Shown here piece after piece: positions 2,061 to 14,509 of a stretch of 41,772 nucleotides of DNA. Each line of letters begins with the position of its first letter. The stretch's first letter is position 1. The stretch comes from an uncultured Anaerolineae bacterium. GTDB lineage: Bacteria > Chloroflexota > Anaerolineae > CG2-30-64-16. The stretch lies in NCBI GenBank assembly GCA_937124585.1, contig CAKZKT010000092.1, positions 1 to 41,772 on the forward strand, written 5' to 3'. Both the position numbers and the translations under genes were made by a program. The notes beneath the pieces were generated by a model, which did no database searches, was not told the DNA's origin, and was given only the letters and a program-made list of their open reading frames with translations.

Positions 2061-2094
2061 CACGTGCCAGACATCGTCCAGAGTGCCTGGCGCG
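2061..2094. repeat. Degenerate copy of the GTGCCAGGCAC palindromic repeat
   Basis: CACGTGCCAGACA and AGTGCCTGGCGCGT flank a short centre. The arrangement matches the copies at 5493-5720 and 13099-13130 but with mismatches between the arms. It lies just upstream of the secreted hydrolase gene. Confidence 0.6.
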
Positions 2095-2502: not shown

Positions 2503-2537
2503 CATGTGCCAGGCAACGACGCGTCGTCGCCCGGCAC
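2495..2537 (-). terminator. Intrinsic terminator of ppdK
   Basis: As a minus-strand RNA, 2537-2506 is a 32-nt near-perfect palindrome (GTGCCGGGC...GCCTGGCAC). Its positions can all pair, with two G-U wobbles, although a few central bases must form the loop. Six U residues follow 3 nt later (2502-2497). On the plus strand the two wobbles become A-C mismatches, so folding favours minus-strand transcription. It lies 45 nt after the ppdK stop. Confidence 0.8.

Positions 2538-2581: not shown

Positions 2582-2587
<6 letters not shown>
2542..2587. repeat. 23-bp perfect tandem duplication covering the ppdK stop codon
   Basis: GCCTACTTGTCTACTTACTA plus CTT occurs at 2542-2564 and again at 2565-2587. 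The second copy contains the ppdK TAG stop (2582-2584). Each unit read on the minus strand carries several in-series TAG/TAA triplets. Confidence 0.85.
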
Positions 2588-5326
<2,739 letters not shown>

Positions 5327-5452: not shown

Positions 5453-5492
5453 AAATGAAGCCCAAGCCGAACTGCCCTGCCCTGAAAATCGC

Positions 5493-5720
5493 CGCCCTCA
5501 CGTGCCAGGCACTCTGCAAGATGCCTGGCACGTGGCAACCGTCACCCGCAGGGGCGCTGACACCAGCCCGAACATCGTCGCCCTCATGTGCCAGGCACTC
5601 TGCAAGATGCCTGGCACGTGGCAACCGTCACCCGCAGGAGCGCCGGCACCAGCCCGAACATCGTCGCCCTCATGTGCCAGGCACTCTGCAAGATGCCTGG
5701 CACGTGGCAACCGTCACCCG
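5493..5720. repeat. Array of 86-bp repeats (2.7 copies), each with a GTGCCAGGCAC hairpin
   Basis: Units begin at 5493, 5579 and 5665; the third is cut short near 5720. Each holds an 11-bp inverted repeat (first unit: CGTGCCAGGCA at 5501-5511 and TGCCTGGCACG at 5522-5532, loop about 10 nt) followed by GTGGCAACCGTCACCCGC. Units are nearly identical, implying recent duplication. Short frames through the array are artefacts. It fills most of the 446-bp gap between cdsA and ppdK; apart from the ppdK promoter and leader I see nothing else in that gap. Confidence 0.9.
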
Positions 5721-5758
5721 CGCAAGCGCGGAAAAGCAGACGCGGACGAGCGCGGAAA

Positions 5759-5774
5759 GACCATTCTCATGGTC
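5759..5774 (-). terminator. Weak terminator-like hairpin at the end of cdsA
   Basis: GACCAT and ATGGTC pair around a 4-nt loop, and the minus strand continues TTTCC. The stem overlaps the cdsA stop codon. Only 6 bp and three T residues, so at best a weak terminator; the hairpin array that follows may act with it. Confidence 0.3.
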
Positions 5775-6618
5775 ATAGTCCCGTCACCGCCAACGCAAAA
5801 TACGTCACCACCGGAAACACGAAAAGCAGGCTGTCCAGCCGGTCGAGCACGCCGCCATGACCCGGAATGAGATGACTGCTGTCTTTGACGTTCGCCAGCC
5901 GCTTGAAAAGCGACTCGGCCAGGTCGCCGAACGGCGCGGCGACAGCGACCAGCAGGCCCAACAGTAATCCCTGCCACCACAGCAACGCCAGCAGCCACGA
6001 GCCAAACGTCAGGCCGGCGGCAAGCGCGGCAAGCGTGCCGCCGATCAGCCCCTCCCAAGTCTTGCGCGGGCTGATGCGCGGCCACAGCAGATGTCTGCCC
6101 AGACTCCGGCCGACGAAATAGGCCGCGGTGTCGCAGCTCCACGTGACGAGAAAAGCGGTGCAGGCCCATATGAAGCCGTCCGGTCGCTGGCGCAAAGTCA
6201 CCAGGTAGCTGAGCGTGACTCCCAGGTACAGAGCGCTGGCCACCGTGAGACCCCAATCGGCGGTCGGATGTTCGTTCCGGTTGTAGAGGGCCCAGATGAG
6301 CGAGAAGAGGATCAATGCGGCCAAGAGCGGCCGCAAAAGGTCATAGCGGCCCGGATCCAGACTGTGAAGGTAGGCCTCCAGAATGGCGCCGACGACGAAG
6401 AAGAGCCCGAGACCGCGATCTACCATGTAGGTCTCGCGGCGAAGGATGATGACCATCTCGCGCCAGGCCAGGATCCCGGCGACCAGCACGCCACACAACC
6501 AGGGAAAGCTGCCCAAGTAAAGCAGGCCGAGAACGAGGGGAATCAGGATGATGGCTACGATCACGCGGGTGCGCAGCATGACGGACGCCTCTCGCAGTTG
6601 GGGAACCGATACACTCAT
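5773..6618 (-). CDS. cdsA: Phosphatidate cytidylyltransferase
   Basis: Makes CDP-diacylglycerol from CTP and phosphatidic acid at the membrane, the branch point of phospholipid synthesis. The 281-residue product is strongly hydrophobic with about eight membrane segments. It ends with the CDP-alcohol synthase signature SLFKRLANVKDSSH then PGHGGVLDRLDS (near residues 235-265), containing the conserved Lys-Asp and the D-R-x-D motif. The ATG at 6618 is chosen because GGAGG lies 6-7 nt before it; an in-frame TTG at 6645 is possible but lacks support. It is the last gene of the rpsB-tsf-pyrH-frr-uppS-cdsA operon, 39 nt after uppS. The dxr and rseP genes that often follow cdsA are absent here. Confidence 0.95.
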   Translation of the reverse strand: MSVSVPQLREASVMLRTRVIVAIILIPLVLGLLYLGSFPWLCGVLVAGILAWREMVIILRRETYMVDRGLGLFFVVGAILEAYLHSLDPGRYDLLRPLLAALILFSLIWALYNRNEHPTADWGLTVASALYLGVTLSYLVTLRQRPDGFIWACTAFLVTWSCDTAAYFVGRSLGRHLLWPRISPRKTWEGLIGGTLAALAAGLTFGSWLLALLWWQGLLLGLLVAVAAPFGDLAESLFKRLANVKDSSHLIPGHGGVLDRLDSLLFVFPVVTYFALAVTGL

Positions 6619-13077: not shown

Positions 13078-13153
13078 ATGAAAAATGAGCCGTGTCCACG
13101 TGCCAGGCACCTGAGAGGGTGCCTGGCACGTCTCGGCCACGTGTCAGACACGT
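13078..13153. repeat. GTGCCAGGCACC hairpin plus adjacent ACGTGT palindrome
   Basis: CGTGCCAGGCACC (13099-13111) and GGTGCCTGGCACG (13118-13130) form a perfect 13-bp stem with a 6-nt loop. ACGTGT-CAG-ACACGT (13139-13153) is a second small palindrome. On the minus strand the hairpin is followed 13 nt later by TTTTT, so it may also act as a poor terminator for the lipoprotein gene. Positions 13088-13109 are identical to 27291-27312. Confidence 0.85.
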
Positions 13154-13189: not shown

Positions 13190-14509
13190 TCACTTCTCGA
13201 CGATGGTGATGCTCGTCAGTGTATCGGTGACCGTCAGCCTGGCAACGATATCCAGGCCACTGATCACTTTGCCCAGGATGCTCAGCGGCGTCTGGTTGTC
13301 TTCCACAGTGACCAGCGAGATGAAGAACTGGCTGCCGCTCGCCTGCACATCGCCCGTGACCGGATTGAAGATCGGGTAGTACGCCACCGTGCCGGTGACC
13401 ACCCCAGAGCTTTGCGGCCCAGATTCGGGCTTCAGCGTGTAACCGATATCGCTCGACGGGTCGCTGGCCGGCGAGCCGGTGACCATGTACAGGTCTTCCT
13501 GGATGAAGGCCACCGGCATGCCGTCATAGTAGCCCAGGTTCGAGAGCAACACGAAGTTGTAAACGCCTTGCGGCGCAGCCTGCGGATCCAGCGCCAGCAC
13601 CACATCGCCCTTTGGCGTCTTGATCGTCGCCTCGTAGGCGGCCGGCTGCTTCTCCGGTGCCTGGGGCGCCGTGTTGTAGAGGCCTTCGCGCTTCTCGATG
13701 GGGAGTCCCGCCAGCGGCCGGCCCGGCTCCAGCTTGGGCGCTTTCGGCAACGGGGTCGGCGTCGGGGTCGGCAGCTGCGATACTGCGACCTCTTTGATGT
13801 CAATCCGTCGGATCTTGTCGCCGACCGCCAGCTTGTCCACGTTCTCCATGCCGGCGATCACCTGGCCGAAGACGCTGTACTGACCGTCAAGGAACGGCGT
13901 CTCGCGCAGGGTGATGTAGAACTGGCTGCCGCTGGAGCGCCGCTCCGGGTTGACCTCGTCGCCGGTGCGCGCCCAAGCCACTGCCCCGCGCGGATGCGTG
14001 TGTTTGATCTCGGCCGGGATGGTGTAGCCCGGCCCACCCGTGCCGTTGCCGGAGGGATCGCCGCCCTGAACGACGAAACCAGGCTCGACCCGATGGAAGG
14101 TCAGGCCGTCATAGTAACCGTTCAGGGCCAGAGTGACGAAGTTGTTGACACCCTGAGGAGCGTCCGGGAAAAGCTCGACGACGATATCGCCCTTGTCGGT
14201 GACGATCGTCGCCTGGTAAATGACGCCGGCCTTGATCCAAACCGGCGCCGGCGCGCTGAAACGCTGATTGCGCTCGGCGGGCGCGATCTGGGCCAGCGGC
14301 CGGCTATCGCTTGCCGGCGCCGGAACGGCCGGCAGAGCAGCCGGCGTCGCCATCGAGGCCGGCGTCGCCGTCGCGGCCGACGGCGCGACTGCGACAGTGG
14401 CCTGCCGTGCCGATGGCGGCGCCACCGGCGTCGCGGGCGGCATGCATGCCGTCATCGTCAGAACGATCAGAACCAGAACACCGAGGAGAAGAGAAACAGG
14501 CTTGTTCAA
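13190..14509 (-). CDS. Lipoprotein with two cyclophilin domains, the second degenerate
   Basis: Exported peptidyl-prolyl isomerase of 439 residues. The lipobox LTMTAC puts the lipidated Cys at residue 22, followed by an Ala/Pro/Thr-rich linker to about residue 90. Domain 1 (about 98-240) keeps [26 protein letters not shown] and [10 protein letters not shown], so it should be active. [11 protein letters not shown] linker leads to domain 2 (about 288-437), where the FHRV position reads VAFIQ and the QGGDP position reads VTGSPASD; the catalytic Arg is gone. Domain 2 may bind clients or be structural. The TTG start at 14509 is chosen because AGGAG lies 6 nt before it. It is 37 nt after the sugar-1-phosphate transferase gene and may be cotranscribed with it. 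Confidence 0.9.

Follow-up and report, generated by a model that had tools for sequence, protein, structure and literature searches.

The array between the cdsA-type and ppdK genes raises the question of whether its 86-bp units belong to this one gap or form a local cluster of a more widely spread element. The window, that is, the whole 41,772-nucleotide stretch of DNA analyzed here, comes from the genome of an uncultured Anaerolineae bacterium (G000; 164 contigs, 4.83 Mb). Tandem Repeats Finder returned an 86-bp period with 2.8 copies, 95% matches and zero indels at 5479-5721, confirming the three-copy 86-bp array that the initial annotation had placed at 5493-5720. Profile searches upheld the names given to both neighbors. 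The CTP_transf_1 domain of the cytidylyltransferase is that of the CdsA family, and the protein scored 129.6 against the NCBIfam phosphatidate cytidylyltransferase model, under its cut-off of 385. The first hairpin of the array begins 176 bp upstream of the ppdK start as called, and the last lies 70 bp from the stop of the cdsA-type gene. The features of the window are as follows.

2064..2093, minus strand: decayed hairpin copy, 2 mismatches in 20 arm bases
2506..2537, no strand assigned: weak candidate copy, one arm intact and the other with 2 mismatches, atypical loop; may be chance
2582..5326, minus strand: ppdK, pyruvate phosphate dikinase (profile search; TIGR01828, 1296.8 bits, cut-off 843.45)
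5479..5564, plus strand: array unit 1, 86 bp, hairpin at 5502-5531 with the CTCTGCAAGA loop type (repeat finding, folding)
5482..5493, plus strand: accessory box CTGAAAATCGCC
5565..5650, plus strand: array unit 2, 86 bp, hairpin at 5588-5617 (repeat finding)
5651..5721, plus strand: array unit 3, right end shortened, hairpin at 5674-5703 (repeat finding)
5773..6579, minus strand: cdsA-type cytidylyltransferase (profile search; CTP_transf_1 domain, 225.6 bits, cut-off 24)
13100..13129, plus strand: single hairpin of the same type with the CCTGAGAGGG loop type, flanked by genes for two cyclophilin-type isomerases

An 11-bp palindrome had been reported within each unit; the hairpins were confirmed, whereas the arms as quoted were 10-mers. 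The relevant unit, about 34 nt long, is the hairpin AC-GTGCCAGGCA-(loop)-TGCCTGGCAC-GT, and 86 bp is merely the local period. We refer to this hairpin family as REP-A, in which each arm has the core GTGCC-W-GGCAC, an odd palindrome. Folded as single-stranded DNA, positions 5498-5535 form a stem that is lengthened by the AC and GT at its sides, carries a single bulged base and closes in a GCA loop, at -18.3 kcal/mol on the plus strand (z -6.74; shuffle mean -5.76, equaled by 0 of 200 shuffles) and -18.2 kcal/mol on the minus strand (z -6.76). When one mismatch is allowed, the arm GTGCCAGGCA has 21 matches in the window where 5.53 are expected, and none of 100 shuffles has as many. At gathering scores, Rfam matched a tRNA and nothing else in the window, and the hairpins matched no known RNA family.

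Searching the genome with the exact-arm pattern (GTGCCAGGCA, 5-25 nt, TGCCTGGCAC) identified 286 hairpins, compared to 0 for a backwards control pattern. These copies, together with the intact one at 13100-13129, contradict the earlier confinement of the unit to one gap and rule out a regulatory array unique to the cdsA-ppdK gap. The initial annotation had also reasoned that its element and barrier ideas would lose support if the unit occurred only here and RNA-seq coverage passed through unaltered; the 286 exact-arm copies show that the unit does not occur only here. REPs are recognized as short hairpins at about 100 or more copies, mostly extragenic, and this holds for REP-A in G000.

Placement was analyzed in the first 20 kb (or the whole, if shorter) of contigs C1-C82, a sample of 1,194,192 bp that is 89% coding, with genes from a simple purpose-made codon-usage caller. 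The sample holds 110 hairpins with at most 2 mismatches, 75 of them perfect-armed. They fall into 72 clusters with spacings of 41-56 bp; 46 clusters are lone hairpins, 18 are pairs, 5 are triplets and 2 are quadruplets, and 1 has five hairpins. Most clusters (64/72) are intergenic, 4/72 being wholly and 4/72 partly coding. Among the 50 clusters flanked by two called genes, 38 lie in tandem, 8 in convergent and 4 in divergent gaps, against 30.2, 4.7 and 15.1 under a length-weighted null. Within the tandem gaps (n = 38), the median cluster is found 19 bp past the upstream stop and 83.5 bp ahead of the next start. Gaps of less than 3 kb between close clusters of the sample and window enclose host-like genes, judged by eye (ppdK by family search), or no called gene, and a passenger transposase between clusters was rejected on this basis. 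DNA uptake sequences occur as many single copies, inside genes too; in the 1.19-Mb sample, just 6 arm 11-mers stand apart from a hairpin, 2 of them in coding DNA, and that explanation was rejected.

The 3' gene end is closer than the 5' end for 43 of the 50 clusters, against a null mean of 19.7 and a maximum of 30 in 500 simulations. This bias, the stable folds, and the GAGA tetraloop of the 13100 copy with the similar GNNA-type loops of other copies of the CCTGNNAGGG loop type would suit host-maintained 3'-end RNA structures, either mRNA stabilizers or factor-assisted terminators, that spread through usefulness at gene ends. However, none of 62 gene ends had a run of four or more T within 12 nt after the cluster, compared with 2.4% of 907 controls; with about 1.5 expected, this amounts to a lack of enrichment only. 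An intrinsic terminator is therefore not supported, and the T-tracts lend no support to the barrier that the initial annotation had suggested for the ppdK promoter. The arms are, moreover, letter-identical across genera, something not required of a plain RNA hairpin, and copies are present in divergent gaps (4/50) and in wholly coding regions (4/72). A host-maintained RNA structure is thus an unlikely origin of the family.

The stem reaches AC-GTGCC...GGCAC-GT, with AC at 190 of 224 feet and at both feet in 86 of 112 hairpins. Two main loop types were observed, CTCTGCAAGA (one bulge and a GCA loop, as in the cdsA-ppdK array) and CCTGNNAGGG. Across 92 distinct loops from the G000 sample, the window and fetched contig loci, the second inner stem pair co-varies, being Watson-Crick in 65/92 (shuffle mean 40.7, maximum 59); the first (71/92; mean 66.5, maximum 71) and third (52/92; mean 47.2, maximum 56) inner pairs are not clearly above shuffling. 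The classical tags within 3 nt of a foot, on either strand, were found in few or no hairpins (GTAG 0/112, GTGG 6/112, GGAG 0/112). CGTC lies within 3 nt of a foot in 14/112, and where it was seen to follow the stem its CGT is part of the paired foot, so a REP with an unpaired CGTC tag was rejected as well.

Hairpins occur singly or in short head-to-tail arrays with the same orientation throughout (e.g., L091, L175 and L200), as judged from the loops only, the arms being symmetric; alternating pairs of the BIME/REPIN type were not found among the arrays compared. Array spacers are copied along with the hairpin inside an array and differ among arrays. CRISPR arrays hold unique spacers between repeats; because the spacers inside one array are here near-identical copies of one another, the earlier exclusion of a CRISPR array was right. 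REP-A is therefore a dispersed, mostly intergenic and 3'-end-preferring family, alike in its arms and not its flanks, with tandem units separated by a locus-specific spacer. Spacers that repeat within a locus and differ between loci suggest multiplication in place after arrival.

Flanks are mostly private to each locus, the exceptions being one duplicated stretch and the CTGAAAATCGCC box, which lies about 15-20 bp outside a minority of G000 hairpins. CTGAAAA is present in 14 of 141 outer flanks against 2.0 expected. With at most one mismatch, the box matches the sample 30 times, where shuffled motifs average 3.6 matches and reach 28; of the 30, 16 are intergenic, and 9 of those 16 lie within 60 bp of a hairpin. 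At L103:13432, the CTGAAAACCGCCG box precedes an unrelated hairpin-like sequence, TGTAGCACAAGATGATATCTTGCGCTACA, hinting that this box is common to more than one repeat family. The duplicated stretch is on contig C5 (L099), where the flanks of hairpins 5914-5943 and 13841-13870, 7.9 kb apart, are identical over 60 bases and alike over 80 bases per side, and represents a duplicated segment.

The family extends beyond this genome. The exact pattern is present in 13 of 60 genomes, counting G000, and a W-arm pattern that allowed gaps of 6-12 nt matched 37 of the 396 class genomes, led by G000 (290), G004 (117), G394 (57) and G009 (51). Among 80 stretches listed of 91 with the hairpin, 62 belong to Chloroflexota and 18 to other phyla; the Chloroflexota matches listed include Anaerolineae, Thermoflexus, Thermoflexales, Caldilineales and unplaced MAGs. 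At least three viral stretches also carry the hairpin. A MutS-like gene of G009 (L077:1911-4619, named by eye) contains an in-frame REP-A-like hairpin with one mismatch at 2316-2344 and a second in-frame repeat reading IPNTQSPIPNTQY.

In two relatives of the same family, G009 and G004, the same hairpin brackets a gene for a REP-associated tyrosine transposase (RAYT), an HuH single-tyrosine enzyme of the Y1 type. The G009 gene encodes a RAYT-like protein of 196 aa (P0001; NF047646 74.5 bits, cut-off 80; Pfam Y1_Tnp 24.2 bits, cut-off 23) with hairpins at -112, -58 and +22 around it, and the G004 RAYT, 89% identical to P0001, has REP-A on both sides. A RAYT from another family (G067), 63% identical to P0001, lies between GTGCCWGGCAC arms whose layout has wider loops. 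Further Anaerolineae RAYTs at about 50-63% identity adjoin similarly built hairpins with other arms (GTGACAGTCAC, GTGCGWCGCAC, GTGCCCGTCAC and more), and some of the 53 RAYT loci scanned have no such stem within 450 bp. Three arm types were scored: REP-A, GTGACAGTCAC and GTGCGWCGCAC. One of these arm types lies within 450 bp in 15 of 69 distinct RAYT-like proteins, and two types in none. The arm type tracks the RAYT tree with 4 changes (shuffle mean 7.35; 2 of 300 shuffles as low), a result that is partly post hoc because arm types were read off some loci later labeled. Exact GTGACAGTCAC-type hairpins are present in 10 and GTGCGWCGCAC hairpins in 14 of 30 chosen genomes, and neither in G000. 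Arm types are not exclusive to a genome: besides REP-A, G004 carries 6 GTGCGWCGCAC hairpins, and G015, G082, G285 and G298 hold both non-REP-A types. Own-type copies are few in some RAYT genomes, with 3 in G313, 2 in G190 and no exact one in G328.

Outside Chloroflexota, REP-A arms adjoin one RAYT of Planctomycetota SJ703 (L337; 37 hairpins in the genome) and lie on both sides of one RAYT in Clostridiales UBA10612 (L334; 2 hairpins), both candidate links. Near-identical 43-bp palindromes centered on GTGCC-N-GGCAC were observed at 867-909 and 1959-2001 of the SJ703 locus, on either side of the RAYT match. The arm was found in 5 of 30 RAYT loci examined, namely in G009, twice in G004 (which is G403 too), and in L334 and L337, and was absent from the other 25. 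These include the RAYT loci of Alkalihalobacterium (12 hairpins; L329, L345), Clostridiales UBA8386 (6 hairpins; L336, L349) and Marinimicrobia TCS56 (3 hairpins; L338, L351), and a second Planctomycetota locus, L350.

Within G000, profile and protein searches and inspection of the RAYT locus found no cognate RAYT. The one RAYT-like gene found, on contig C102 (L076:8420-8947), encodes a protein that aligns with P0001 along part of its length at 31% identity and is flanked by GGGGACAYGTCCCC palindromes in a locus without REP-A arms; the long form of this palindrome has one match in the 1.19-Mb sample. P0001-like RAYTs (E<=1e-20) are present in 4 of the 15 genomes with at least 10 REP-A hairpins (G004, G009, G011 and G289; the 15 include G000), about the rate of 94/396 for the class, so plain co-occurrence of hairpin number and RAYT fails. 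As the RAYTs of G011 (L125) and G289 (L339) have no flanking REP-A, the pair is seen in only 2/15. For G084, G306 and G394 (10, 10 and 57 hairpins), there was no NF047646 match at E<=0.001. With the RAYT flanked by REP-A in few genomes, the link is observed in those and for G000 is one that we infer.

These results bear on a reading in which the family was once RAYT-borne and is now inert, the present arrays having arisen enzyme-free, from replication slippage and recombination only. The missing cognate RAYT in G000, the 13 of 15 hairpin-rich genomes in which a RAYT with REP-A was not seen, and the duplicated stretch on contig C5 are all consistent with it. The perfect arms in 75 of the 110 sampled hairpins argue against it, as do the contig starts, 9 of 82 of which lie within 200 bp of a hairpin (1.0 expected). 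Arrays thus probably break the assembly, and a RAYT between arrays could be missing from it, because contigs tend to begin at hairpins. We regard an inert, enzyme-free family as improbable. A third possibility, that each GTGCC-W-GGCAC arm is a dimer site of a conserved DNA-binding protein (e.g., a chromosome-organizing one) and the arrays are binding platforms, keeps a slim chance because each arm is itself an odd palindrome and the same core occurs in other phyla, but sits poorly with the 6 arm 11-mers outside hairpins in 1.19 Mb, which make the site an inverted pair at hairpin distance, and with the differing arms of similar build at other RAYT loci.

Comparison with known systems places REP-A near REPs without making it a canonical one. 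REP-A shares with REP/RAYT REPtrons (PMC2817692, PMC8266576) short, high-copy, mostly intergenic hairpins, a repeat that flanks the RAYT (here in two relatives) and several repeat types, with one at each RAYT. It differs from them in having no GTAG foot tag (GTGG in 6/112), in its head-to-tail instead of alternating arrays, in its palindromic arms and in the cognate RAYT not found in G000. As it shows neither the GT(A/G)G tag nor pairs of alternating orientation, and no RAYT flanked by it was found in G000, REP-A is not classed here as a canonical REP. The published account that comes closest is that of the TIRs of TIRYT genes (PMC3733652), in which a RAYT-like gene lies between inverted repeats that lack the tag, some TIRs being called double palindromic and some forming dispersed families. 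A RAYT between inverted copies of an untagged, also dispersed palindrome is seen for REP-A in G009 and G004 and not in G000. The likeness is one of description, and TIR families are described there as moderately abundant, unlike REP-A. The same source names GTAG repeats in the phylum Chloroflexi (PMC3733652). Hairpins of atypical form next to TnpA_Y1 genes of class 3 and subclass 2.6 (PMC6006769) likewise have no GT(A/G)G consensus; the class 3 structure, for which Solibacter usitatus is given about 600 copies, ends in a CnGA foot and goes with another protein signature, and REP-A is set apart from it by description. Among titles and abstract starts in the open PMC literature (preprints outside), no paper on a bacterial repeat with these arm letters was found.

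On balance, the cdsA-ppdK array is best explained as a local cluster of the genome-wide, REP-like family REP-A, once spread by a RAYT and multiplied in place, a reading to which we assign a probability of about 65%. Its position on both sides of a transposase gene in two relatives makes the hairpin probably a very small DNA element, mobile now or in the past, whose general kind is known but whose form is unusual. The initial suggestion of a mobile REP-like element multiplying in place therefore agrees with the dispersed, intergenic, head-to-tail and, in two relatives, RAYT-bracketing copies, and lacks its cognate RAYT in G000. A RAYT of the P0001 kind would have nicked and rejoined the hairpin folded in single-stranded DNA, e.g., on the lagging-strand template, scattering copies. 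Where a copy landed, the hairpin and its local flank may then have been multiplied together, through strand transfer or through slippage of replication at the hairpin, which would account for the 41-56-bp spacings of the sample and the 86-bp period at cdsA-ppdK. Copies would last best just past stop codons, where an insertion may be harmless or a 3' mRNA hairpin mildly useful. In G000, the enzyme may have been lost, left unassembled or replaced, and the copies may thus now be relics.

A broader proposal, which we consider possible but doubtful, is that the GTGCC-W-GGCAC core is a RAYT recognition element kept or reinvented across Chloroflexota, Planctomycetota and Bacillota. Related Anaerolineae RAYTs would have switched to the sister cores GTGAC-W-GTCAC and GTGCG-W-CGCAC, and RAYT residues would correspond, in a readable code, to palindromic arms that lack the GTAG tag. 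REPs are usually viewed as species-specific, and a core kept across phyla would, if true, be contrary to that view. With REP-A, a phylum that has been little studied would gain a REP type with palindromic arms and no tag. Its RAYTs form natural sets, related in protein yet accompanied by different hairpins, in which the long-standing question of RAYT-repeat recognition, and whether RAYTs still move REPs, can be tested. The hairpins may also explain why contigs of the assembly tend to begin at them.

Two further repeats were observed in the window. GTC-rich tandem repeats occupy positions 6-480 within a called gene on the minus strand (1-1806), and a 23-bp direct repeat of the CTACTTGT type at 2542-2587 adjoins the ppdK stop.
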